Below the pieces are notes generated by a model, which saw only the letters and a program-made list of their open reading frames with translations, was not told the DNA's origin and ran no database searches. Position numbers and translations under genes: made by a program. Positions 6,259-50,940 of a DNA stretch of 64,000 bases are shown piece by piece (the stretch's first letter is position 1; every line of letters begins with the position of its first letter). The stretch is taken from positions 248,001 through 312,000 of the forward strand of contig NADL03000763.1 in the NCBI GenBank assembly GCA_002205965.3. Reading direction: 5' to 3'. The DNA is from Kappaphycus alvarezii (lineage: Eukaryota; Rhodophyta; Florideophyceae; Gigartinales; Solieriaceae).

Positions 6259-7463
6259 CTGTGTTTTAATTTGTAATAATCGCTGTACAGGTGATGGTGC
6301 AGCGTTTTGAAGACCGGAAGATTCCTTTCAGTGTCACAGCAATGTAATTAACATGCAGATGTTGCGTTTGTGGGGAAGAGGGGGCGAATGGTAACGATCA
6401 GTTTTTGTGGGGAGAGGGAAGGGAATGCGGGCAGTGGTGGATGCGGTTGTGAGGAGTTACCGGGGAATGTAATAGCGGTTGAGATTGAAGCGAACGGGCG
6501 TTTTTTGCGGTTTTGTGGAGGGATGAAGAATGATAACAGTAGTGAGTGCGGTCGTGTAATTTTCGGGAGGAATGGGAACAATGGTCTGTGCGGTTTCGAG
6601 GAGTTGTGGTAGTGAAAGTGAGGGAAGTGTGTCGTTGTGGGGTGTGGCGTGGAATAAGAATGAGCGGTGGCTGTAATTGCAGGAAGAGGGTGATAAATAG
6701 AATGCAGCAGTTCGTGCCGATGCGGGGGGAGATGATCAGTAAAGGAAACAGGTAGCTCGTGCTTTTTTGGGGAGCGAATAAGAAACGCGGACGAACATTT
6801 AGCGTGATGGTGGGCAAAGGGTAGGTACTGAAAGCGATCATTCGGTTAGTGGTAAGGAGAATATGAGGAACGTAAAGGAGCGTCGGAAGTTGGACGTGAA
6901 AACTGAGTTGTTATGACGTGTGGTCGTTCAGAAGGGTGCTCGATGGGAAGGCAAAGAAATTGGATCCAGCAGTTGGTGCGGTCGGGGCAGAAATTGAAGG
7001 CGAGCAGGCTACTTTTGAGAACAATTTTGGTGTGACTTTTGGGTATGAAGGATTGTGGGTAGGGAAGCGAGTAAGGGAAGGAGCAGCAAGTCCGGCGGAG
7101 AAACAGTGGCGGCAAAAAGGTCGGTTCGAAAAGCCGGGTGTGCTTCGAGGTTGGAATTTGTTGGAAGTTTGTTCGTTTCTCGTTTCAAATTGTGACGAGG
7201 AAATCCCAGATTTCCTGGTCGGTGTTTGAAATGTTGAAACAAACGTGGCCAGTTGGGCCTCTCTAGCTGGCTTTTCATTTTTCATTTTTTCAATTCTTCA
7301 CGTTTCAAAAGTTAAAGAAAGCCTCTAAGCGAAAAGCGGCCATCGGGGCGTTATAGGTACAGCTTTGCAAATAATCCTGCGTACATTCCAAAATATGTCG
7401 GACGATCTTCCAATCGTACGTCTGGCAAACACACTACTATAGTTCTGCAGAAATGTCCACATA
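6259..7463. repeat. G-rich, strand-asymmetric low-complexity DNA
   Basis: From about 6370 to 7230 the plus strand is strongly enriched in G over C, with degenerate GGAATG/GTGCGGTT/GAGGAG-like repeats. The skew keeps both strands open, and the resulting frames have compositions typical of repeats. No domain is visible. It ends just before the tyrosine-recombinase element, and its function is unknown. Confidence 0.4.
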
Positions 7464-9553
7464 ATGGCTATAGTTGATGCTGCCATCGGCGGGCTTGCCT
7501 CCCACACATTAACACCGTCTGGATCGGACGTGCATATGCAAAACCAAACCGAAGACATCGACTCCCGATGTCTTCTTTCGCAAACTACAAGTCGAAACTA
7601 CAAACGCCTACAAAAGAAGGTCGAAAACTGGCTTCGTAATCACCCCCGCTCAGCATTTTATTTCGGACAAGGAACATTTTGCCTGAAAAGTCTCTCCGCA
7701 GAAGTAATCAGAGAGTTCCTTGCTCACGTCAGCGGCTCCGATCTTCCGAGGCCACTCGCCAGATCAGGCCTACGAGTTTATCGTTCTTCCATTCGATTTA
7801 TATTCGCTCAAGAGAAGTTCCGCATTCCAGAGTGGCTTGAAAAAGGATTTGACTTCCTTTTGTGCTAGTTTGAAGCGCCGTGATGCAGGTCAGCGGCAAA
7901 ATGGATTACGAAGAGTTCAAGAAGGAAACCAAGCACTGTCCTTTTCCGCTCTTCGCGTAATATCGAAGGCATGTTTGAAATATAGTAACGAAGGAACACG
8001 CTGCTTCCCACACCTCTACATGCTCTTGACGTGGAACTTCATGTGTAGATCTAACAACACCTCTTATGTCACATTGCGGTATCTGCTTTTTAAAAGAGAT
8101 GATCTCGTTGTTCTGTTTTCAAAAACTATAACCGATCAAGGTGGAGATCGTACGCAAGACCCGAAGCACGTGTATGCCAACCCGATTATGCCAGAGATTT
8201 TTCCAATCTTGAGCATGGCAATTTGCTTCGCCAGTACTTGTATCGGATTTACACAAGAGGAGTTATTTTCGGGAGGCCATAAGCACGACAGATTTCTGAA
8301 ACTATTTTCATGCTTTATTGCAAACGCCTATGGTCTCGGGGGATCTTAGCGCTATTGTTGCGCTTCCATCTTCGGAATTGGGAAGCCATTCGCTTCGAAA
8401 GGATCTAGCACGTTTGTTTGTAGTGGAAGTGTTGGGGGGCTCATGTTTGCTTGCGGTTTAGTTGGACGTTAGGTGGCGTACAAGATCTCTATTTTAGATA
8501 TGAAACGGCCGTTGATTATTATGTTGGGAAAACTGTAGCGGGGTTGCCTCTTTCTTCGGCAGAGTTTGCTAGCTCTCCCTATTACTTCTCATCTCATTAT
8601 GACACAGTCTGTGGTGTTTCGAGGAATTTATTTCCCGACGCCTGGGAACGCTCTCATCTTCGAGAGCTGTCATCTATGCTAGCAGCTTCACTCTTTTTTC
8701 ATGCACTATTCCTACCCTTTACACTGTCAGTCGGTCACTCGCTCTGGAAATGCTTCATTTTTCGTGATAAAAGTGGGTTTCGAGTCCTGAAAGACAAGCT
8801 TATAACAGACTTGATGTCACCGTCTCCTTGATTAATGCCAATCGGTATACTTCCTAACATCGACATTCTTTGCCAAATTAAAAGAGTATCAGACGCGGTC
8901 GAAGTTGTTCCCAACAAATTTGTCGAAGAGGTGCAGTCAATCGTCGCACAGGAGAGCCAATCGGGGCCCATTTCAAGAATTGAGATGTATCATGCGATGG
9001 AACAACTGATCGATCGAATATAGCGTACTAATGAACGTCGAGAGCAAAACTTTTCGCTTCTATTGACCCCGCCCACACAACAGAAGGACGTAAAGATGGC
9101 AACGATAATTCCGCCTCTATATCGCAACATAGTAAAGGGAGAAAAGACATATGGGGTGGATGTTTTCGGTGCTTGCCCAAGGACTGTAGACTTCGAACGC
9201 CACTTTTCAAACTGGCTGCTTTCTGTGGATGGATGGGAACTAGCAGTACGGTATCCCACCTCTTCGCCTCGCCTCTTCGTCCGACTTGTCACTACCGCAT
9301 ACGAGAAAAAGATTCTCCGAATGGCGGTTTGCCATGCGGATATGGGAGGAGCGCTCGGACACAGTAAGCAGTACTGTTCCTCTAGAAGATGAAATGAGGA
9401 CTATGTGGGCTCGAGTGATCAGAGGTATCAACGTCTAAACTGATAACCTGAAAGGCCAGAAAAGGATCCGCGCTAACTTGCAAGTAACAACACTTGCAAG
9501 ACTTTGGCGGAAACAGGGTGCGTTGCGGGACGTGTGCGAAATTGTTCCTTCCT
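7464..9553 (+). pseudogene. Tyrosine-recombinase mobile element (Crypton-like), broken
   Basis: Remnant of a large protein with a tyrosine-recombinase (phage-integrase-like) core. In order I read an N-terminal helical domain (about 7560-7860), LTWNFMCRSNNTSYVTLRYL with the first catalytic Arg (near 8050), KTITDQGGDRTQDPKHVYANP (8130-8200), the HxxR box SHSLRKG (near 8390), then SWTLGGVQDLYFRYETAVDYYVG with the candidate Tyr, and DILCQIKRVSDA. After another frameshift WMDGN-QYGIPPLRLASSSDL and HTRKRFSEWRFAM follow. This series matches recombinase ORFs of Crypton-like elements in oomycetes and algae, as I recall them. At least four frame changes and several stops break it. It is only distantly related to the Crypton at 39-41 kb. 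DIRS-type origin cannot be excluded, but I see no reverse transcriptase next to it. Confidence 0.68.
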
Positions 9554-33892: not shown

Positions 33893-34754
33893 CAGGCAAC
33901 TACTTTTTGTTGATTACCAACAAGTTAGCACGACAGGTTAAATAATTCAATCAGGTCGGGAAGTCGATTAATCTGCTTCTGATGCCCCCTGAACAGTTCT
34001 TCACTCAAGACGCACTTGCCTTCGCCGTCGGCGAGAGCTGCGAAGAGTGGGTGTACAGGAGTCAAGAAAGTACCAATACTGTACGGTGTTAGTGTACGCT
34101 CTGGTACGGTGTTACTGTACGCTCTGTACTGAGCCTTCTGACTATATTTAATTACAGTGGAATTCCAAAATAAGCATTTTCTCACTAACTCGCCAAAACC
34201 GCCGCCTTGCTGATCTTCCAATAACGGCCCTTCTCAGGCCATTTGGGGATGCTCATGTGCAGAATACCTCAAAAGTACCATTTTCGCGAGCTTAAACAAC
34301 CGTGACAGCCCCCACAGCGGTTGTTTTGGGGGGTATTCCAGCATTACGGTTTGAAATATTTCAGCCCTATTTCGAAACTTTTAAAACTTTTCAATTATTT
34401 TAAATACGCTGTGAACGGGTTGCCAGCAAACCTGTACCCTGTGTTGCCCTACCGACACAACAAACTCAAAATGTGATACTGAATGCATTAAACTTTTTTC
34501 TTGCGCATACGACACAACCTGCTAAAGTTGTTTTGTATGCACAACACAGTCCGTTACTTTTGACATTACGGGCCCCATTTTTTGAGAAGGCCCCCACTTC
34601 CCGTCATTTGTTGGCCAGAAATAACTACTCGTTTACTTAAACGGATATAGTTCTTCGACCCCCCCATCTGCTCCGCAACCCCCGACGACACGCGCAGCTC
34701 AAGGCGTTGGTCGACCTTGCGACACATCCCTTGTGCATCCAAAAACATTCAAAT
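33893..34754. other. Spacer with a 23-bp tandem duplication and the first GACACA dyads
   Basis: Contains GTACGGTGTTAGTGTACGCTCTG at 34081-34103 and a near copy at 34104-34126. From about 34440 the TGTGT/CGACACA motif appears, and 34505-34541 forms an imperfect 14-bp inverted repeat (GCATACGACACAAC and its near complement). No gene is seen before the ATG at 34755. Confidence 0.5.
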
Positions 34755-36840
34755 ATGGCCACCAGCAACACAGCATCCAACAGTTCTGCCCGGGCATCCG
34801 CTTCTGCGGATCTACCGCCCATTTCTGGGCAGGTTGATTATGGAGGCATCAACTTGTATCATTTGCAAACCTGGACGTGCTAGCCCCGGCAAATGAGGGT
34901 GAGCGCCTCTTCTGGTTCTCTTCCCTCCCTTTTCACAGGTTGTTGCCGGAGTATTAGACACGCAAGGGGAGCGGTTTGAGAAGGCAGTAAAGAACAACTT
35001 CGACGATGGGCTGCTGGAGAAGTCCCAAAACGTTCGTGGAGACACCGCAAATGAAAAGCTCAATTTTATCAAGAAAGACTTACTTTGTAATTACCACGAT
35101 TTTCGCCAGGTGGAGTATCACGATATGTTATCGTGCTTGTTCAAGGTTGGAGCGAAAGCAAAAATGCTAAAGAATGTACTGAAGGACGTGAACAAAGATC
35201 TTGCCGAGTTGCAAAGGACTTTTAAGGCAAAACAGAACCGCAGTGCACCAAATCGAGCGGAGGGAAAGAAAATTGGAACTTCTATTGCGTTCCATCGCGA
35301 AATACTGTCACTTAGACTTGATAGTTTTTATCGCTGTTTCATTGCGATTGGAACTTTATCCCCCGCTTTTGATTTGCCGGTTCTTCATGTCTTTACTTTG
35401 CTTGGGTTTTCTGTATTCATGGAGTGCTTATCATCCTGGGCAAGGTCGATCAAGCTAGATTTCACAGAGCGCATTGGCCGTCTACTCATGAGGGATTTTG
35501 CTCGCGCCATTGCAACAGACCTGGCTAATTCTGAACCAATTCATTCAATTAGCAATGAGTACGAGAATGGAAATTGTTTTGTATCCACCCGAACTATGGT
35601 TGACAATGAACATGTTATTGTCGATGAAAGTCATGTACATTGTCATAGCTATTACGGAGCTAGTTCTGCCAATGGAACATGAAAATGGAACATAAAAAAC
35701 CGCTGTCGAGGTAGAAAAGTATGCCACTGCAATTCATGAAGAGGGAACTATGAAACAGGACTCAAAGATATGGAAAGATTTCCGCGAGAATGCTGAATTT
35801 GTCGATGTGTCGGGTGGTTGCGACCGGTTGCCGTTAGCTCTCCTCCGTATCGTTGCCCGTTTAGACAGTATTGTCAGTGATGAGAACTCAACGTATCAGT
35901 TGAGAAACGAGTGGTCGGAGTTTGCCCAGCAGCAGCAGGAATGCGAGGACACTGCGGCATTGTACACAAAACGCAAGCGGAAAACGAATCACGAGTTGCT
36001 GTCAGATACGCCATACGCTGCATACTCGGATCTCAATACTGTATTATGCAACTTCAAAGGCCATTCAGCCTTCGCAAGGAAGCTGTGTCGTCAGATCGAC
36101 ATACTTTCCGAGATCATTAGGAAATCGTACGAAGAAAACATCATTTGACTCGCAGAAGCTGAAAATGTCAGCGTGTACTCCGGTCCGGGAATGTTCATTG
36201 ACGTAGCTGATGCAATGGAGTACGTTGAACTGGTGTTAATGGAGGTGAAAATGATGCACCAGCGCGTCGCCGATGACCTATTCGCGCACTTATTGATTTA
36301 TCCTATGTTCTATCTTATCAAGGAGGACAAGAGAGAAATCTTCACCTCCCGATTCCCTAGCGCGATTTCTCACGTAACACTTTTCGTGTCGTCCACTTAT
36401 ACGGAGCGCAGTAGGAAGCGTCGCAGGGATGACAACGTAGTAATTGGTCGTGATAGTGTTCCGAGAAGGAACCCGGTTCGCAGACAATCGCGTAGGGGTC
36501 ACCGCTCAGGTATCAACGCGGAGGAGGGTAGTGGAGATGAGTACAGCGATTTCTAGGAGCAGGAAGACCCCGGGGAAGGTGGTCATGATATTGAGGAGGG
36601 CGAGAATGACGCAATGAACAGTTTGTGGTGGGTGGTGATGGGGATCGGGAGCATGCCATTGAGGGCGAGAGCGGTAATCGGGGGGAACAAGGAGGAAAGC
36701 GACGGGCAGAATGACGCTGATGATGGCTCGGTAGATAAGGGCAGCGGTGACGATTAAGAAGAGATGGAGGATGGAAACGATGCGCAGGATGATGAGGAGG
36801 GTGGGGAGGGGCAAGATTTGGACGAGGCGTAGATGGAAGG
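34755..36840 (+). pseudogene. Unrecognised spliced gene, decayed
   Basis: Exon 1 is 34755-34832 (26 codons: MATSNTASNSSARASASADL and on). A likely intron follows (34833 GTTGAT to 34938 TTTCACAG, phase 0). Exon 2 is open from 34939 to 35682 (VVAGVLDTQGERFEKAVKNN, KMLKNVLKDVNKDLAELQRT, DFTERIGRLLMRDFARAIAT). It then changes frame, passes a TAA at 35693 and continues in one frame with two more stops (EFVDVSGGCDRLPLALLRIV, NIYEEN-like end at 36146; ISHVTLFVSSTYTERSRKRR; acidic tail EEGSGDEYSDF at 36555). A basic cluster followed by a Glu/Asp-rich tail suggests a nuclear protein. No domain is recognised. It might be a host gene or cargo of the mobile element that seems to fill 34.4-42.5 kb. The exon-1/intron boundary is inferred, not certain. 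Confidence 0.48.
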
Positions 36841-36924
36841 GTAACGAGCAGCTCTCTGTGGATATCTGCAAGCATGATAAATTGATTTTCATTTGACAAA
36901 CATCAGTATACTGCAATATACCTT

Positions 36925-38060
36925 ATGGTATGTGTTCTGGGGATGACATAGTATATGGGTACCGTGTCACCCCCACGACACAACCTTAAACCACCACCTA
37001 CACATATACCTTTCTGTATGTGTCATGGAGGTGACACAATACCTATGTACTGTGTCACCCTCAAGACACAACCTGAAACCGCTAGCCTACACATATACCT
37101 TACTGTATTTGTCATGGAGGTGACACAATATCTATGTAATTTGTCACCCCCACGACACAATTGTGTCGTTTGGGTGACACAGGTTAACCTTAAACCACTA
37201 GCCTACTCCATATATACCTTACTGTATGTGTCATGGAGGTGACACAGTACCTATGTACTGCGTCACCCCCACGACATAACCTGAAACTACTAGCGCACAA
37301 GCACCTTATTTTTCGAGGGTGACACAAAAGATAAGTACTTTGTTGTTCCCACGACACAAACTGAAACTAATGTACTACTCATACGGTGTGACACAAGACT
37401 ATAGCCACCACCCTACTCCATATACATCTTATGAATGTGTCGGGAAAGCCACATTACATAGGTTTTGTGTTATCCCCTAACCAGACACAGACTTTAAGAA
37501 CCGCTGTACTTCGTATACACCTTATGGTATGTGTCGTGGCGGTGACATAATGCGTAGGTAGTGTGTCATCCACCCGACACAGACTTTAAAAACCGCTCTA
37601 CATATGCGTCTTATACTATAGTAGTAGTATGTGTCGAGGGGGTGACACAATACATAGGTATTGTGTCATCTCCCAGACACAGACTTCAAGCACCGAGCTA
37701 CTCTATATGCACTTTATAGTATGTGTCGAGGGTATGACACAGTACAGAGGTATTATGTCATCTCCCGGACACGGAATTTAAGAACCTCTACTTCATATAC
37801 AACTTATGGAAAGAAAAATAAAAAAATTAAAAAATTTTAAGAAAATAAAAAATGAAAATATGGTATGTGTCGAGGGGGATACACAACTTGTGTCGGGTGG
37901 ATGGCACAATTTGTACATAGGCATTGTGTCATCCACCCGACACAGACTTAAAAAGCAGCTCTTCTTCACACCTTATGGTATGTGTCGAGGGGCTGACACA
38001 ATGCAAAGGTGTTTTGTCATCATCCCGACACAATCCTGCCTCACTGCACACCTGAACTTT
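36925..38060. repeat. Minisatellite of about 11 units built on TGTGTC/GACACA dyads
   Basis: About eleven diverged copies of a unit near 95 bp long. Each copy reads roughly TATACCTTATGGTATGTGTC, then (G/A)(A/T)GG-GGTGACACAATAC, then (T/C)ATAGGTATTGTGTC, then CCCGACACA and an A/T-rich link with AAC(C/T)TTAAACC. Every unit therefore carries two TGTGTC/GACACA inverted pairs. An AT-rich insertion (37806-37858) splits the array between units 9 and 10. Neighbouring copies are similar at the left (GTGTCATGGAGGTGACACA) and at the right (GTGTCGAGGGGGTGACACA), so the array grew from at least two local types. It is not a CRISPR array: the whole unit repeats, and there is no unique spacer. Confidence 0.93.
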
Positions 38061-38587
38061 GCAAACTGTGACATCTGAACTTCGAACTGTGTTGCCCTTT
38101 CTGCAGTCCTTAGAGAGATGTTTCGGAGGGTATAAAAAGTATACTTTGTGTAAATTACTCCTTGCAACGTGCACCGATCACCGTACTCCGTAGAAAACTG
38201 AAAATTATGCGTCGATGAGAAGACGCTATACGCATCCAATATTTGCAATTTTTTTTTCACCCCTCTGACACTCAACGACATCAGAAAAGGAATACTTTTA
38301 CTTGTGTTCATTACAGATATATTAACTATGTTCCAGAGTCGCACTATGAGTTGTTGTGTCACACATACGACACAAATGTCAACCTTGTGTCAGGTCACAG
38401 ACACACTACTTCAGTATCCACATAACCCTACCAGCAATTAAATTAATCTCCACATCATTATGATCTTCCCTCGTGTCAGGTTGCACTTCCCAACCTACCA
38501 CTATTGCACGGAAACGAAAAGCAGTCACTGACTGTCTGCGACCACCGTGGTTACACACTACCATAACCAAGCTTTATTCACTTCTCC
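38061..38587. other. Spacer with further GACACA motifs
   Basis: No gene recognised. Contains TGTGTCACACATACGACACA (near 38357), TTGTGTCAGG and a T-run at 38248-38257. The motif density continues that of the minisatellite at a lower level. Confidence 0.45.
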
Positions 38588-39085
38588 TTGCTCTCCGAGG
38601 CTACGGATCCCGCTCTAGACGAAGCCTTCACTAACTATGTCGTCGGACAGCTCATGTGGCGTCTGAAGATTTCGAGGAGAGACGCGATGGAAAAGAAAGT
38701 GGAGTTCAAGATATTCGTCCGCGACAAAGCCATCCTCCGCAGCAAGTTTGACAAGAAGAATAAATCGAAGGGGGACTGGCTCAGGTTAGCGCGTTGATTT
38801 GTCGGGAGAATGGATATGTGGAAGGCAGCTTATGAAAACGATTTCGAAGCTTGGGAATGGAAAGCGAAACATAAAAACGATGCGAAACCCAATCCAATCT
38901 TACCACAACGGCGACAGGGATTTGTGAGCGTGTTGCGAGATGATTTAGGTAGTGTTCTTTGCGGAAATTACAAAATCAGATACACTGAAACGGCAGGCAC
39001 AGCGTCCAGACAGTGTGCACACTGCTCTTGTCCCCTCCACGCTACTTTTGTTGACCGGTACATTGAGAGCAGCACTTGGAATTGA
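38588..39085 (+). pseudogene. Unrecognised small ORF, one in-frame stop
   Basis: 69 codons (38588-38797), a TGA, then 91 codons in the same frame (38810-39085). Text such as VGQLMWRLKISRRDAMEKKV, KAILRSKFDKKNKSKGDWLR and GSVLCGNYKIRYTETAGTAS shows a basic, charged protein with a late RQCAHCSCP. No family is recognised. It runs convergent with the Crypton reading on the other strand and overlaps its last codons. It may be a second gene of the same element or chance open DNA. Confidence 0.32.
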
Positions 39086-41120
39086 GACGGAAGATGGACT
39101 TTGCTCCAACATCTATTGTTTCAATTGTGTCCCGCACGATGATGAGGATGCTACCTAAGTGTTTCACCCCTAGCACATTTTCTGCTTCCCTCTTGCTTGC
39201 TCTCACCCTCCTTTTCAACTCAAGGATCGTAATGTCATCAGGATTGTACGCATCAATAAACGATCTCTCTCCAAGTCTCTCATATTCTTCTGCTATGAGT
39301 TTCCTGTCGTGATATTTGTATTTCATTGCCGCCGTCCTGGCTTTTTCAGACCAGTCTTTCAGTGGCACGAACAAGTCCAATCCTGAGCAACCTACTGTCC
39401 AGTGTTCAATAATATCCCGCCAGTTATTAACTCTTGGTATGAATTTGCATTTAGATGAAAGCTCTTCTTCATTTCCTGATGCAAGTACAGAACCAGATCC
39501 CTCCCTGGTTTTTTCATCATCCCCCAGTCCTCCCGCACTGTTGGTGAGCCTTGCCCCCCCTTCCGCTGTCGCTGAGCCCACCCCCTCCCCCCTCATTGTT
39601 GCTGAGCCCCCACTTCCCCCCCCCCTCACTGTTGTTGCGCACACCCCCAATATTGGTGCGTCCCCACTTCCTATCATCCTGTCCATTGGCACTATAACTG
39701 TCTTGGAAATTGTTTCTTTCCAAAGTTCGGACAGGAAATCTGTCTGTGCTGATATGTGCGTGATAGTCCTTTCATCCAAATCCACCATGTCCTTTTGCCC
39801 CTTCTGTATTGCAAGTTTTAGTTCAGAAATCACGTCCTCAAGGTCACCTACAGGCTCTATGCTTTCTTTTACCTCAAGGTCATTCCCACGATTGAAGAGG
39901 TAATGAGTATAACTTTCTTCATATTTCCACGTCTCTTCCAGCAGATAGCGGATTACAGTGTTCACGTCATCCCCACCCCCCCACCATTTTACTACATGAA
40001 GCGGCCACCGTTTGGCTCCCGTAAGAAACTGATGTTGTACGCCCCCCCCGTCGAAAACAATGCATAGTAAACCTACCTAATGGTTCCCCCGCCGCGTTTC
40101 TGGGAATATTGTTGCCCCTTTAAACCCAATCGTTAATTGTTTTCATGAAATTCTGCTGATTCATTCGTGTTCCAAAATTGATCTGCGAAACGACATCATC
40201 TGCATGGGGAAACAGGGTGTCACCACTCTCAAGCGGTCGAGACATTATAGATTGGTACTTTTCAATCCAAGCACGAACATGAGTGAATGAACATACACAC
40301 AAATCATTCTTTTGTTCATATATCGTGTACTTTTGCTCATCAGCATTGCGTTCAAACTTTCTTCCTTTCAATGTAACTTCAATAAATGGCACCCTTTGCT
40401 CGTTCACTGTGTCCAATCGGATGTCATCCCAGCTCAATTTAACTAGTTCGTCTATTCGCAACCACAACGCAAAACACAAAGACGCAGCTTCCATTACGTA
40501 CGTAGACTGCAATAACTGCGTTCCCACGCGGATTGAATATCTCTGCAAGCGTTCCATGTATCTGTACTTCAAAGGAAGGGCCCTCTTGTATCCTACTTTT
40601 TTTTTTGCCCTCTTGTAGTGGTTCATGGCGCCCTCAATATCGACTGAGTTCACTGGATTTCCCTCTTTCTTCCCACCGGGAAAAGTTTTCCATTTCCCAT
40701 CCCTTCTGAATTTCCTCTTGTACACGCTCGCAAGAGCAGATCTGATATTGACCACCTCGCCAGGGTCACATCCTGTCTCCATAACTTTGTAGTAGAAAAA
40801 CTCCGATATCTTCCCAACAATTAATGCGCTTGGTTCTCCTGCTCCTTCGGGATCGACAGGAATTCCTCCATCCCGCAATCCACTGTCCATGCGGAACGAT
40901 CGAAATTGTTCCCATTTCCTTTTATACATTGCATCACTGCTCTCCCTCACGAACCCGAGGCTAGTACTCACGCCTTGAGCTTTCCTACATTCGGCACTGA
41001 TAACTTTACGCCGTTTAGGAATGAAGAATCGTGCGCGGAACGGTAGCCAGGACGGTGGTGGAGGTTGATTTGCAGAGGCAGCTTTTGATAATGGTGTGCA
41101 GGTGTGGCCTGCACTGGTGA
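39042..41120 (-). pseudogene. Crypton tyrosine recombinase with GCR1-like tail, nearly intact
   Basis: On the minus strand the frame is open from beyond 41.1 kb. It begins with a proline-rich leader and KRRKVISAECRKAQG, then SSDAMYKRKWEQFRSFRM (arm-type domain). The recombinase core follows: SLCFALWLRIDELVKLSWDD with catalytic Arg (codon 40456-40458) and FIEVTLKGRKFERN with the strand Lys. After a single TAA (40120-40122) the same frame gives GRFTMHCFRRGG, the HxxR box (His 40060-40062, Arg 40051-40053). A run of eight G (40042-40049) then shifts the frame. The other frame continues VQHQFLTGAKRWPLHVVKWW (W/H position) and NTVIRYLLEE with the nucleophile Tyr. A C-terminal domain near 39350 (NWRDIIEHWTVGCSGLDLFV, DRKLIAEEYERLG) matches the GCR1_C-type DNA-binding domain typical of Cryptons. 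All R-K-H-R-W-Y residues are present. Only one stop and one base break the gene. Confidence 0.87.
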
Positions 41121-41900
41121 GGTTGATGTTCAGAAAGTTTTGGTGGCGGTGGCGGTGGGGGTGTGGTTGAGGAATTTTTGGCGTCGGTGGCGGTAGGTGT
41201 GCGTTTTTGGGAGTCTTACCACCAAGGTGCAGTGCGGGAGTGTTTCTGGGAGTGTTGGAGTGGCAGTGCTAGTGCGGGTGTCGGTGTCCGGTGTGGGTTT
41301 CGGAGTGTGGGCTTCGGTCGTGAGTGTCGGTGAGGGTATTAGTGATGGTCCCGACGTAGGAATGTGGGCGTCAGTTGCGGGCATCGGTTGTTGGTATCAC
41401 TGTCGGATTGTGGGCGTCGGTTGTGGGCGTCGATTGTCGGAGACGGGTATGGGAGAGGCATCTGGTGTTGGGAACGCGGGTATGGGCGTCGGTGCCGGAT
41501 CTGGTGCTGGGATTGCGGGTATGGGCGTCAGTACCGGAGAAGGTGTTTTGGATGTTGAGTTGAGAATGCAGGCGTGGGAGGTGGTTGCGGTTGGCAGGGG
41601 TTCCGAGATGGTGGTATGGGGTGGGTGGTACGGGGTGCCGGTGCGGGGTGGCTGTGTAGGGTGGGATGCGTTTGTTGCCGTGGTTGTGGCAGCGGCCTCT
41701 TGGCAGAGAAGGATGCGTGAGGGAGTGCGCGGTGGCGGTGCGGAGTGGGGATGTAGGCGTGTGGTGGGTGCGGGGCAAGGCGGGAGCAAGGACTTGACAG
41801 CGTCGCGAGGAGATTCGGGACGAAGGGTGCGATGAGGGCAGTCTTGATCAGGACGGTGAGGATGAGGCGAACAGTGGAGGGGTACGTAATGGGGAGGGAG
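41121..41900. repeat. GT-rich repeat tract
   Basis: Plus strand rich in GGTGTCGG, GTGGGCGTCGGT and GGGTATGGGCGTC. Between about 41440 and 41555 a 39-bp unit (GCGGGTATGGGCGTCGGTGC...) is repeated roughly three times (starts 41476 and 41515). Long frames result on both strands from the skew, but none looks like a protein. Confidence 0.6.
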
Positions 41901-42154
41901 AATACATATTTATTGATGTCGAAATCAACATGATTTCAAACGTACCGCCTTTTTATCATGATACTGGAGTGCTGTGTTTCTGTCAGCTTCCCTAAATTGT
42001 GTCGGTGGGGTGACATATATGCGACCCTATCGACAAACGACATGGAAGAATTCTCATAGATGCTGACGGTCATCGCTAAATTAAGCGTAATATAGTGACC
42101 TTGAGATACTCATTATGATCATATTAACGCAGTTTTCTGCTTGCAAGCCATGTT

Positions 42155-42182
42155 CCCATGTGTCGCGTGGGCGACACATGGG
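42155..42182. repeat. 12-bp inverted repeat with GTGG spacer, TGTGTCGC dyad
   Basis: CCCATGTGTCGC (42155-42166), spacer GTGG, GCGACACATGGG (42171-42182). The arms are perfect. The motif is the same TGTGTC/GACACA dyad as in the minisatellite at 37 kb, and further single copies occur at 42000-42220. Confidence 0.9.
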
Positions 42183-42412
42183 TCAATATTGTGTCGCATA
42201 GCTGATACATGTGAACTACCGGTAGCACACTTATTATTCTATAATATTTCTCGCAGAAGAGGCATGCTTTATGACCGTCGGAGCGCAAGGAGCATATTTC
42301 ATTCGTATTGTATATAACTATAATCACAAAGTGCACAAAATAATCCAGTAGAGATCATAAGACTTGAGACAGCGATTTTATCGGCTTTCGTAAGTTGATA
42401 CCGTTCATGTGA

Positions 42413-42450
42413 ACTGCAAGATGATACTGTGAACAGTATCATCTTGCAGT
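42413..42450. repeat. 18-bp perfect inverted repeat with 2-nt spacer
   Basis: ACTGCAAGATGATACTGT (42413-42430), GA, ACAGTATCATCTTGCAGT (42433-42450). A 36-of-38 palindrome that is followed within a few bases by GACGACACACATGCCGTGTC. It may be a recombinase-binding site, a protein dimer site or a cruciform-forming insertion. Confidence 0.92.
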
Positions 42451-43563
42451 GACGACACACATGCCGTGTCATCTATGACTCTCTGAATCAATAGTAAATA
42501 GCATTGTGTAGTGAACTGTTTTGATTTCAGACATATCTTTCTGTAAATAGTAGCTATATCCAAGCACCAATACTTTTATCGCATGGGTAGCAAATGATGA
42601 AGGAATTCCTGTTGGGGTTTATGATTGTGTCTATGATTGCATAGTATCATGTTTTCCTGAGGAACAACAGGGAGGTTGAAACAGAATCGGACTTGAGGAG
42701 ACTGTATTGGTCGGCGAGAAAACGAGGGTTGATTTACTGCTGAGGAGGGTATAATATGGCTAGAATACATGGAATAATGCAGTGAGGGTATGTAAAGCAT
42801 ATAAAAATGGCTGCAGCTCAGGTGAACGAATATTCACTGCCTCCTTCGGTACTAGAAAATAGTCCGCAAACCTGGTAGCAGGTAGTCAGCAATTCGATCG
42901 CACCTTTCAAATATTAAAGATCGCCCAGATCCCCCAGCCCCTTCTATATTTACGGGGGGGCTTCTAGGAGTAGCAGAGGGGGTGTATTAAGTCAATCGTA
43001 GCCAGAGAGTTGAAGAGGTATCGTTGTTTCTGAGTAAAGAAGCGAATAGCAGTACTAAATCTATTTGATGGTCAAATAGGGCTGTGAGGATAGTGATCCT
43101 GTTAATTTGTTCTTTAAATTTATTCATTTTCGGTAGTTTTCTTGCTATTTTGCAAAAGCCCGGCCAGCACGGTTGATTCTTGAAAAAAATGTTCTCACGA
43201 ATGTGGCCGGATGACCTTGCAGTACAAATGTTTTTACATTTGCTGATTTAAAACAACTGCTATTCGATAAGAAACAACTGCTCCCCCCTCTTTATGTTGA
43301 AATCGTTCAAAAAAAGCGCTATAGCCTTGCGACCTCCTGAGAGCGAGAGTGACACGGTGCGGACAAACCTGGACGAATTTTATCAAATAACTTTTTCCCA
43401 AAATTTCACGGTCGGAGCCGGCGGCTCGCAAGCTCGCAAGCTCGCCGCCGGTTCTGACCGTGACATATGGCTCTACATGGTTGTTTGTACACGAAATGTA
43501 AAAAATTCAATTGCGCACAAAACGTTTACTCTGATCTTTACTGCATTAATATCGAGGGTACCG
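42451..43563. other. No gene recognised; one strong hairpin
   Basis: Mixed AT-rich DNA without a domain in any frame. At 43406-43463 lies a hairpin: left arm TCACGGTCGGAGCCGGCGGC (43406-43425), 18-nt loop made of TCGCAAGC repeats, right arm GCCGCCGGTTCTGACCGTGA (43444-43463), with two mismatches. It ends about 100 bp before the outer copia 5' LTR. Confidence 0.6.
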
Positions 43564-44853: not shown

Positions 44854-46533
44854 TTAAACGCAGTTGTCCATCATCGGCTGAGCAGCTGTAGCGTAGCATC
44901 CTGCATCTCCGAGAAGGGGGGGCAGATCCCGGATCATAGGAGCATAGTTCTTCTCCCTGGCGTGCTTCAACTTGTCGAGTGACGCTCGAATAAAACGATC
45001 TCCGTTATCCAAAGTCAGCATTTTACCTTGCACATCACGCACGACGAGTGGTCCTACCCACTTATCTGCGGGCTCCTCTCTGTACATGAGTACTTCGTCT
45101 CCAATGGCATACGTAACATCAGCGGCCGCAGGTACGTTTCTGCTCAGTGCAGTTCTGAGACGGGCGTTGTGGGATATTTTCGTCATTTCCTTTCGTGCCT
45201 CGCTTAGTGCTCTCATCCGCTTACTGTGATCGGGTAGTTCCTTTGGCATGAGTGGAATACGCGGAAGGACACCAAACACCAAGAGCGTGGGCACGAGTCC
45301 TGACGGCCCGGTGGTATTGTTAATAGCCTTGACTGCCAGCCGCAGAGCGAGACTGCGTTCGATGAGCGGGTCGTCGGCAGTGACCTTGTTATAGGCTCGA
45401 CGGAGGAAAGAGTGATTTTGTTACCCTACCCCGAGCTCGTTATGACTTTCAACGCCAGAGGGTTGCTCCTTTATGCCAGCGGCTTGCACGGGGTTCTGCC
45501 ATTCCAACGATTCGAAGAGCCGCCCTTGGTCTACCTTAATGCTGTCTGGGAAACCGACGTATGTAGACATCCATATGTGCATGAAAGCATTCCATGTATC
45601 AGTGGTCGACTCCCCCTTAAGGAAGCAGGCGGCGCTGAACTTGGTGTCCTTATCACCCACGTGCAGCACAGTGCTCTTCTCAAGCTTCATCAAGTCGATA
45701 CAGACTGTTCGATTGAATACGCATTCCCCATCGGGAAGGGACACCTAGAATCGTTGAGGAGCATCTGCTTCCCCCTGTCATACTTCGCAAGTTGCGCTTA
45801 TGCGTTTCAGGTCCGCCATGAGCTCCGGGGACACAGATTCTGGGTCAGCTCCTCGCATCATCGCGTACACTTTGCCTGGATGTGGATGGTGGGAATGTAG
45901 GTGTATCTTACGAATCTCAGCAGAAGTAAAGAATACACTGACACACCATTCTATGTATACATGCCCTCGCTTACGCACTAAAGGTAGCGTCCATCCATCG
46001 GATTTCGAGCGTACAGCGTCATCTGCAAAGTCCAATATGAGTCTTGCCTGGGTGAGGAGATCAAGGACCAGGAGTAACGGCACGTCAACATCGACGACGT
46101 CGGCGGTGAATGAGAGGAAGAAATCATTGGAGAATGGAATTCGCATGGAGATGTTACCAGTTCCCTTGTGGGTGGACTCTCCGAAAGTAAACGTCAATAT
46201 ATTTCCTTTCACCTCGCTCATGAGGTCGGTGTTAATGAGCGCACAGTACGCCCTGGCCTGATGCTTGCCGATCACAGTCTTCTGTGCACCCGAGTCAACG
46301 CATCCACCTTCGAACTCCTGGGAGGTTGGCTTATACCAGGTGGATATTATAACGAGTATTTCATGAGAGTCTGAATCAACTTCAGGATGTAGCTCCGGAA
46401 GCCCAGAGGACGGAGTATCAGAACTATCCGAATCATATTCTCCTCTCAGGGCGGACTGGAAAATGTTAACATCATCGGGTTCGTCCTCATCAACCATGCT
46501 ATCGAGCTGCCCACAGAGTTCCGCTAGAACCAT
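44854..46533 (-). pseudogene. Copia protease and integrase
   Basis: Protease comes first: EGGCVDSGAQKTVIGKHQAR has the aspartic DSGA motif, followed by LLLVLDLLTQARLILDFADD. A pre-integrase region is next (KIHLHSHHPHPGKVYAMMRG, LMADLKRISATCEV). The integrase core continues in other frames: CIDLMKLEKSTVLHVGDKDT, TYVGFPDSIKVDQGRLFESL (Asp) and GVESHNELGVG. The integrase C-terminal part (44854-45294) is open: KRMRALSEARKEMTKISHNA, GDEVLMYREEPADKWVGPLV and GDRFIRASLDKLKHA, an SH3-like barrel. At least two frame changes and stops lie between protease and integrase. No functional product. Confidence 0.8.
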
Positions 46534-46570
46534 ATGTACTGCGTGTTTCTTCGGAGTCCTTTTTCTTATA

Positions 46571-47812
46571 TTACTCGAGCTTCTCAGCAGCAGCCCTGGC
46601 GGCGTTCAATGGCTTCCTGCAATCTTTGAGCATATGAACAGGATCACCGCAGTTGAAACGTCCGGAAATTTCTAGAGGCTTTGCACGTGAACACGCTGGA
46701 TTATGACACCTTGGTCGCACATTCTTGGGATTGTACATGTATCGGCCCTGCCCAGCGTAGTGGATACCCAGCTGCTCATCCGGTGGGGAAGCCCTACTCA
46801 CAGCGGCGTTAGCTCTTGCGAGGGACAATCTGGCTCTTTTATCGAGCTGTAATGCTGCTTTTAGTTCTCCATAAAGCAACTGGAAGCTGATCCCATGTGT
46901 CGCCACTCGACTTAGGGGCTCACGCGACCAGGAGTATCCGACAGTAGCGTTCCGGAAGAATTCGATCTTGTGGGAGTCACCTCTGTGGGACGATGGAAAT
47001 TGACTGGATAGTTTGGTGATCAGGTTGTACACCTTAGCTAAAGCCATCGAGGTCTCCAGACCGCTCCTGACGAACTCAGAAACTCGAAGTGTTTTGAGGT
47101 AGTTCTTCACACGAGTTTGGCGAACGAGAGAGTTATACTCGCGGTTTATCATCTCATCCGCTTGCTGAAACGTCTGCGCATACGTCTCCACCTCTGCAAG
47201 ATGAACCCGTTTAGCGTCCTTGGAAAAGAGATTGTGAAGATACTGTAGCTTTTGTTGCGGACTTAAGCCGTAGTCTCTGGAAACCTGTGAGTACTCATCC
47301 ATAAAATACATCCAGCGTTCGCCGAGGTCCCCCCGAGAACTTCTTATCCGAGTCCTTGCGCCGCATAGCAATGTCATGGGCCAGCCTGCTCCCGTTATTC
47401 CCATTGATGCAGCAACTGCTCCCAGAATCGGTCGTTTCGATCACGATCGTCCCTTGGTTCTGCAGGTCGGATCTGACTTTCCGTCCCGCAGCAACGATGA
47501 GTTGAGCGGTCTGAACAGCGTCGTCACGGTCGTCAGCATCGTCGTAGATCCCATGCGCGAGCGGAAGGATTACTCTGCGTGAAGAATGCTGTTTGAGATT
47601 TGCACCTCTCGCATTGAGGAAGTTTCTGAGTTCCACCCAGACGGATGGGAGGTCAAAGATCTCTTTAGCGAACAGGCGGGTAGGGACAATTCAGCAATCA
47701 TCTCCTTGAGCTGCACACCATGCAGTTCAGCATCTAAGGACCGCATTGTTATTATGAATCCCTTCTGAGTGGTTGTCATGGAGGACAGTTCTTGATTTGA
47801 GATGGCCTTCAT
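46571..47812 (-). pseudogene. Copia gag with damaged zinc knuckle
   Basis: Three overlapping frames cover gag: 47812-47570 (TQKGFIITMRSLDAELHGVQ), 47636-47295 and the long 47404-46571 frame. The last includes RWMYFMDEYSQVSRDYGLSP, QQADEMINREYNSLVRQTRV, a long helical part, and near its end GRFNCGDPVHMLKDCRKP. Relatives have CFNCGxxxHxxxxC; here the first Cys of the knuckle is Arg, one base from TGC to CGC, so metal binding is lost. Frame changes near 47.4 and 47.6 kb split the gene. Confidence 0.7.
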
Positions 47813-50046: not shown

Positions 50047-50940
50047 ATGGAAAAAGCAGACCTGATACCACTACCCGAGATACTCAAAGAAAGGCCACCC
50101 AAACTAACATGCTCAGGATGCGCACATGGCAAGCGCAAGCCACAATCGCACAAGCCCACATCACATGACCACAATGTGGGCGCGGCACTGTGCTCGGATT
50201 TTATGGGGCCAATGCATCAAGCGATCAACACAGGCAACAAGCATATTGCGGTATTTATGGATTTTGCCTCAAGATACGTCATATGCCATTTCATCCCGAC
50301 CCAACGTGACATCAACAAGTGTGTGCGCGACACACTAGCACTCATTCAAAACAGGCATAAGCGCTACCCTGACACATTCAAAAAAGACAATGCCACGGAG
50401 TATTTCTCAAAAGACCTCCAACAACTTTACGACCAGGCCGGCATCACGGTGAACTCGACAAATCCCCAAACTCCGCAGCAGAATTCATTAGCGAAACGGA
50501 TCTTCTTAACATTGATGGGGCCGGCGCGGGCAACCCTGCATCAAGCCCAAGTCCCCGAAACTTATCGGGAGTACGCGATGGGAGATGCAGTATTCAAGTA
50601 TAATATCAATAGAAACTCAACCACAGGCCAACTGCGACACACCAAGTGGAAAGACAAGGCACCATCTATCCAACGGCTCTATGCATTCGGCCAAATCGGC
50701 ACTGCCTACTCCCACAGGGACCACAACTGTGTGCGCAAGCTGGACTCGAGTGCATTTCCCGCACGCTATCTCTATGCAGCCAAAAAGGCAATTATCGCGG
50801 TACAGGAACTGAAAACAGGAAAAATCCAACGCATTCGGGCCATCAATTTCCAACCATACCACCCTGAAAAAGACCCCGTCCGCTCGATTTTAGCGCGACC
50901 ACCAACCACCATGCACGCCAGCAACGCCCAGCGGACATGA
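50047..50940 (+). pseudogene. Outer copia integrase, catalytic Glu replaced
   Basis: 297 open codons. After a pre-integrase CSGCAHGKRKP (the CC half of the zinc motif) comes the integrase core: AALCSDFMGPM (first Asp), HIAVFMDFASRYVICHFIPT, then DTFKKDNATEYFSKDL with the second Asp, then NPQTPQQNSLAKRIFLTLMG. Active copia integrases have PQQNGvAERxNRTLM; here the Glu codon is AAA at 50494-50496 (Lys), which breaks DD35E. The C-terminal SVRSILARPP-like end precedes RT. Otherwise remarkably intact, so the lesion may be relatively young. Confidence 0.85.

Follow-up and report, generated by a model that had tools for sequence, protein, structure and literature searches.

Do the 8-9 kb that surround a tandem array in the red alga Kappaphycus alvarezii form one mobile element, and what are the many TGTGTC/GACACA dyads in it for? 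The locus lies in a stretch of 64,000 nucleotides (GCA_002205965.3, contig NADL03000763.1, positions 248,001 to 312,000), which is called the window here. An earlier note on this DNA had proposed a large Crypton-like element with cargo and internal repeated candidate binding sites at 34440-42480. We found that the window holds a decayed copy of a many-copy, three-gene family of tyrosine recombinase (YR) elements with defined ends, to which the dyad is nearly restricted. With moderate confidence, we favour the reading that the dyads of this family are bound by its own dimeric protein.

The dyad was defined as TGTGTC-N8-GACACA and scored with at most 2 mismatches in 12 and a spacer fixed at 8 bp. 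The window contains 29 such dyads, all located at 34440-42209, and none in the remainder of the 64 kb, while 20 dinucleotide-preserving shuffles of the whole window gave a mean of 3.3. The earlier note was thus right both in the places where it saw clusters of the motif and in seeing none outside. When the search was loosened to 3 mismatches, 24 scattered matches appeared outside 34440-42209, as expected for so loose a pattern. Apart from the array, dyads start at 34440, 34707, 36084, 38355, 38386, 41998, 42159 and 42190. On the right, the motif had been reported over 42.0-42.47 kb, which holds for 41998-42209 but not near 42.46 kb, where the half-sites stand in the reverse order (GACAC..GTGTC). 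This reversed pair adjoins a palindrome at 42413-42450, which is perfect over 38 bp (18-bp arms, 2-bp loop).

Each dyad consists of two half-sites of 6-7 bp and a constant 8-bp spacer. The half-site consensus is TGTGT(C/T)R and the whole 20-bp site is TGTGTCR-N6-YGACACA; base frequencies around the dyads are weak beyond the motif, and isolated dyads have little in common outside the 20 bp. The left and right dyad regions are no more alike than shuffles allow, with alignment scores of 19 (direct) and 26 (inverted) against shuffle maxima of 29 and 27. Compared with the array, the left, right and middle regions score 29-35 (shuffle maxima 27-29). The array itself contains 24 dyads at up to 3 mismatches, in which nine successive pairs are exactly 32 bp apart and in inverted orientation, if the G-rich side of each spacer is taken to mark its direction. 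Tandem Repeats Finder called repeats in it at 36916-37160, 37413-37807 and 37866-37914.

The genome (336 Mb, 884 contigs) was searched with the array DNA, and nine further array loci were found besides the window copy, all nine with a YR match. We aligned 20 kb around each array locus and judged the boundaries by eye, as the point where similarity stops and unrelated flanks begin. The left ends of the window copy and 8 other array copies coincide at one point, with unrelated flanks except in C619 and C460, and right ends were located in 7 of the 10 array copies, the window copy included. The search for other copies of 34.4-42.5 kb, which the earlier note had proposed, thereby yielded nine more loci and defined ends. 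That the interval belongs to one element is borne out by the multi-copy alignment and the conserved gene order; the ends first given, 34440 and 42480, are replaced by 34271 and 43499 (Table 1). C619:1254880 and C460:1669248 have identical left flanks and near-identical arrays; the shared left flank marks them as a single insertion, present either at a duplicated locus or in two haplotypes.

The left-end DNA occurs at 34 genome places, of which 11 are in array loci and 23 elsewhere, and 30 of the 34 are near a YR or gene A match. From the 23 non-array places, we picked 5 with a nearby strong YR match, which are called relatives below. Their first ~93 bp match at 84-87% and their coding regions match once translated; the rest of the DNA, including that between genes, mostly fails to align by blastn. 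The relatives are 7.8-8.0 kb long, except C513 (4.4 kb). Past the right end of element C37, a near-perfect tandem pair of a 95-bp unit was seen at L027:1275-1466.

The usual left end is xAAxGTACC, and right ends follow GTACATGAAATGT apart from minor changes. Both ends thus hold an AAATGT-like hexamer, in agreement with the direct repeats of 4-6 bp that had been sought there. All 7 array copies with both ends carry such a hexamer on each side, some with 1-2 changes, and the right end of C695 is AATGT. In the 5 relatives the right end is AATGT and the left end AATGT or GATGT. No terminal inverted repeats were found in the 12 loci with both ends: the first 20 bases are identical to the reverse-complemented last 20 at 3-7 positions, and local alignments of the outer 100 bases stay within the range of 200 shuffles, except for a weak match in C837, 67-100 bases inside the ends. 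A subterminal inverted repeat is present (up to 3 substitutions) in 14 of 15 loci and missing from C38; the C767 match sits at the second left-end copy of that locus. Two further observations concern the right end. In C665, similarity leaps from 42437 to 43408, as though the DNA between the palindrome and a right-end hairpin had been deleted. By eye, this GC-rich hairpin, just inside the right end (~43410-43470), is present in the window copy, C665, C837 and C695; in C595, C592 and C767 it has collapsed or is absent.

Three genes, named A, B and YR, are found between these ends, and in the window copy all three contain stops and frame breaks. In four relatives the order is left end, A (+), dyads, B (+), YR (-), dyads, right end; the fifth, C513, keeps the order of A and YR and has the middle part, including B, deleted. 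Between the subfamilies, the proportion of synonymous differences (pS) is at or near saturation (YR 0.83-0.87, B 0.67-0.87, A 0.57-0.86), while that of nonsynonymous differences (pN) is constrained (YR 0.15-0.21, B 0.24-0.37, A 0.32-0.43), from which it follows that all three were maintained as proteins during the divergence of the lineages. Within subfamilies, the ratio of nonsynonymous to synonymous substitution rates ranges from ~0.4 to 2.8, mostly 0.5-1.7, as expected for copies that decayed after insertion.

Genome-wide, 114 YR matches were collapsed by hand to 77 loci and 109 gene A matches to 68 loci, some of which may be pieces of one element. YR lies within 12 kb of gene A at 52 of the 68 loci, 51 of them convergent and usually 4-5 kb apart. 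Since gene A is a convergent partner of YR at 51 of 68 loci, it was rejected as cargo, and as nonsynonymous change is constrained in A, B and YR alike, the cargo reading of the earlier note was given up: to judge from the sequences, A and B look like conserved core genes of the family.

The YR identity is supported by Phage_integrase matches in Pfam, all below the curated cut-off (E 0.0024 in the window, 3.3e-4 in relative L029 and 0.0033 in a third piece; other pieces gave no match). Besides, the residues R-H-R-Y, with the HxxR and W motifs, can be read by eye in the open frames of the family, with H changed to Y in C676. Pfam scans of the C-terminal YR pieces gave no match to GCR1_C, the domain that follows the YR in the CryptonF subgroup. 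For gene A, Pfam scans gave no match below E 0.1, and its structure model is mostly helical with low confidence (predicted local distance difference test, pLDDT, 51). In relative C37, gene B is open over 203 aa; its C-terminus is Cys/His-rich and resembles a RING/PHD-like finger by eye, with sub-threshold RING-like Pfam matches (E 0.017 and 0.14) and a model pLDDT of 35. Both models were too poor for a fold search. No C48 peptidase was matched among the gene A and B pieces scanned with Pfam. PDB searches by sequence gave chance-level matches at most, two in one search, one in another and none in the rest; viral contigs and plasmids searched with YR contained no relative, and viral contigs searched for the paired-dyad pattern gave nothing useful. 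From the Crypton recombinase and two unknown ORFs first described, the recombinase stands, while the open reading frame (ORF) at 41.2-41.8 kb is low-complexity DNA: the 41197-41835 ORF was rejected as a gene because it is of low complexity by eye and without a match in the Pfam scan. The region around it (41100-41860), upstream of the YR gene, is G-rich with a GC skew of 0.5 and is open in several frames on both strands.

We counted dyads (at most 1 mismatch, spacer 8) over 15 loci, namely the 10 array copies, window copy included, and the 5 relatives. It turned out that 213 dyads lie within the elements (129 kb) and none outside (165 kb), where the bounds of C619, C460 and C38 are shortened, insertions fall within those of C592 and C38, and the right bounds of the relatives are approximate, within ~110 bp of the ends seen later. 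The spacer of 8 is strongly preferred, as spacers of 3-7 and 9-14 give 0-4 dyads each per element, and ten shuffles per element gave a mean of 0-0.1. All 10 array copies have a dyad in the left slot and in the middle slot, and 7 of the 10 have one in the right slot; among the 5 relatives, the counts are 3 (left), 4 (middle) and 5 (right). For the middle slot, the five array dyads of C837 were assigned by eye, because the script classed them as genic where the start of gene B is deleted.

The exact dyad occurs at 275 places in the genome, against 10 for the reversed control pattern, so the motif is far from equally common elsewhere, and the repeated candidate binding sites proposed earlier stand as a feature nearly restricted to this family. 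Among the first 50 of the 275 in listing order, 48 have a match to YR, gene A or the left end no farther than 12 kb away (the others are on C18 and C21). A chance cluster of the motif was rejected on three comparisons (29 dyads against a shuffle mean of 3.3; 213 inside against 0 outside; 275 against 10). The same counts bear on the idea that the element captured binding sites of a host protein, such as an activator, silencer or chromatin factor. The position of the dyads ahead of three genes would suit it; however, 275 exact dyads against 10 reversed ones, and only 2 of the first 50 away from element parts, suggest that the host uses the motif little elsewhere, and we regard a captured host site as very improbable.

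The period of the middle array is 31 bp in all four relatives that have one and ~89 bp in the window subfamily, with no array in C513; the repeat unit differs while the dyad site is kept. Array length and unit number vary between copies, which would fit an ordinary minisatellite, with the other dyads as strays and the element as a chance neighbourhood of unrelated repeats. This account is contradicted by the 15-locus comparison, in which the dyad slots are kept across synonymously saturated subfamilies despite units of 31 and 89 bp. It was rejected and appears extremely improbable.

When the right and left ends are juxtaposed, most of the copies in both subfamilies show a TACAT..ATGTA symmetry about the hexamer, while the window copy has TACAC..ATGTA; this is a juxtaposition of ends and not an observed circle. 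The symmetry (GTACAT/ATGTAC) differs from the dyad, which is absent from the ends. Because the ends carry this different symmetric sequence and the dyads lie elsewhere, crossover at the dyads is improbable, and this candidate was rejected. The dyads could still be accessory (arm-type) recombinase sites, to which a non-catalytic YR domain would bind for synapse assembly. A YR match lies no more than 12 kb away from 39 of the first 50 listed dyads; YR windows make up 0.55% of the genome. Inverted repeats around a segment of 6-8 bp are a general geometry of YR sites (PMC3212892; this and the papers below are cited from excerpts), and a sub-threshold coiled-coil-type match after the catalytic region of the L029 piece (Trimer_CC, E 7.6e-4) could mean oligomerisation. 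However, besides the lack of a dyad at the ends, the half-sites, which have no conserved extension, measure just 6-7 bp, compared with 11-13 bp for YR arms, and most dyads are mid-element, kilobases from the ends. Such a role seems quite unlikely to us.

The reading that we favour, binding by a dimeric protein of the element, would work as follows. The element would leave its site as a circle and recombine back into the genome, presumably at the AAATGT-like hexamer, where YR would be expected to act on the end symmetry. The dyads occupy three slots, one ahead of every gene: a few dyads to the left of A, the array in the interval from A to B, and a few more before YR. A dimeric protein encoded by the element, which may be A or B, or YR through a non-catalytic domain, would bind them cooperatively, as suggested by sites upstream of three genes, the fixed spacer and the regular spacing. 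Once bound, it would control the element's own transcription, and the array would act as an enhancer or a maintenance locus. For the function of the dyads, we would place regulation first, circle maintenance second and recombinase accessory sites third.

The spacing of the dyads is regular in both subfamilies: 32 bp (51 cases) and 31 bp (12 cases) in the array group, and 31 bp (27 cases) and 21 bp (12 cases) in the relatives, which are about three (31-32 bp) and two (21 bp) helical turns. Such a layout also calls to mind known maintenance loci. The STB locus of the yeast 2-micron plasmid is made of repeats. This plasmid joins the tyrosine recombinase Flp and the maintenance proteins Rep1 and Rep2 with the cis-acting STB (PMC8318298), as the element joins three genes, one of them YR, with its sites. 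Epstein-Barr virus (EBV) oriP has a site array with a period of ~30 bp and a separate paired-site cluster, and a single element-encoded protein, EBNA1, serves both episome maintenance and promoter activation (PMC3095595, PMC2654434). The 20-bp dyads of the relatives have a 31-bp period and a separate cluster at 21-bp spacing, so by analogy the dyads might be the replication or segregation locus of an extrachromosomal circle. Yet dyads also stand upstream of A and YR, as regulatory sites would, and the likeness to oriP is one of layout, in a virus with another motif and no recombinase; the 2-micron plasmid, in turn, differs from a family that is integrated, with many dispersed copies and defined ends. 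We consider this function unlikely. The fuller version, an integrating eukaryotic episome in which a Crypton-like element is excised as a circle that replicates or segregates through its dyad array, bound by its own protein, is rather unlikely; if true, it would be a bridge between transposons and selfish plasmids of the 2-micron type.

Several observations weigh against binding by the element's own protein in a fixed three-gene family. Pfam scans recognised no dimeric DNA-binding domain in any element protein. No partner was matched at 16 of the 68 gene A loci (YR, up to 12 kb away) or at 25 of the 77 YR loci (gene A), which may be due to decay, to divergence or to a partner that is truly absent; the latter count touches a refuting condition of the earlier note, a Crypton without the unknown gene. 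The five relatives favour complete elements, because they were chosen for a left end and a good YR match together. Two of them lack a left-slot dyad at 1 mismatch; the right-slot dyad is lacking in three array copies, whose alignments end short of the slot. Besides, spacings of 57 and 60 bp in the array subfamily are not whole helical turns.

Table 1 Features of the element in the 64-kb window (positions are those of the window)
Feature	Position	Strand	Remark
Whole element	34271..43499		9,229 bp; ends from comparison of the window copy with other array copies
Left terminal direct repeat	34271..34276		AAAAGT here; AAATGT-like in other copies
Subterminal inverted repeat	34294..34326		AAACAACCG...CGGTTGTTT; GGTTGTTT found again once beside the right end
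Left-slot dyad	34440..34459		1 mismatch; weaker ones at 34497 and 34529 (3 mismatches each) and 34707 (2)
Gene A	34755..36553	+	pseudogene here (in-frame stops, frame breaks); candidate intron 34899-34938 by eye
Lone dyad within gene A	36084..36103		1 mismatch; none counted in gene A of the other 14 loci
Middle array	36916..38050		~11 units of ~89-92 bp, from dyad positions; most hold two dyads 32 bp apart
Two perfect dyads	38355..38405		38355 and 38386, upstream of gene B
Gene B	38567..39145	+	pseudogene here
YR gene	39045..41034	-	pseudogene here (in-frame TAA and frameshift)
Right-slot dyads	41998..42209		41998, 42159 and 42190, upstream of the YR gene
Right terminal direct repeat	43494..43499		AAATGT

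Elsewhere in the window, a second YR-like fragment at 7443-8346 (+) has a weak Phage_int_SAM_1 match (E 0.0042) and is unlike the YR at 40 kb by eye. Two retrotransposon fragments were also seen, one at 45778-47404 (-) with sub-threshold matches (aspartyl protease-like, E 0.0067; DUF1759, E 6.2e-4) and one at 50047-50940 (+) with an integrase core (rve, E 1.4e-11).

Cryptons are YR transposons with no terminal inverted repeats and with direct repeats of 4-6 bp at their termini, and some members, of the CryptonF and CryptonS groups, carry a C48 peptidase as a second gene (Kojima and Jurka 2011, PMC3212892). As described there, they are centred on the YR, with few genes or domains besides. YR transposons have neither terminal inverted repeats nor target site duplications (PMC3627910). 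The family described here shares the lack of terminal inverted repeats and the short direct repeats and has a probable YR, and its assignment to Cryptons would rest on these features; it differs in its three conserved genes, its length of 8-9 kb, its many conserved 20-bp dyads and its extra genes, which have no C48 match in Pfam. Of the earlier label, the end features fit a Crypton, while the three-gene content lies outside the Cryptons described; with 9,229 bp and three genes, the element is indeed larger than a one-gene Crypton. The Crypton account excerpted from PMC3212892 mentions no site arrays. A Fanzor-carrying fungal element has a partial Crypton transposase, with its membership left open (PMC3627910). 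The Starship elements of fungi are also YR elements with further genes (PMC12134995), but they are giant and carry accessory cargo, whereas here A recurs as the constant convergent neighbour of YR, and in the loci compared B lies between the two. Among the titles and opening abstract lines listed in searches on Cryptons, red algae, algal cargo and palindromic tandem repeats, a coverage outside which most subscription papers and Repbase fall, no such element is described. The best reading is that the family is a multi-gene variant of Crypton-like elements.

In conclusion, dozens of loci, three conserved genes and a regular site array suggest that Crypton-like elements can carry a dedicated DNA-binding system for regulation or maintenance. 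To our knowledge, how the excision of YR transposons is controlled in eukaryotes, or how their circles persist, is little understood, and this family offers a testable system for both.

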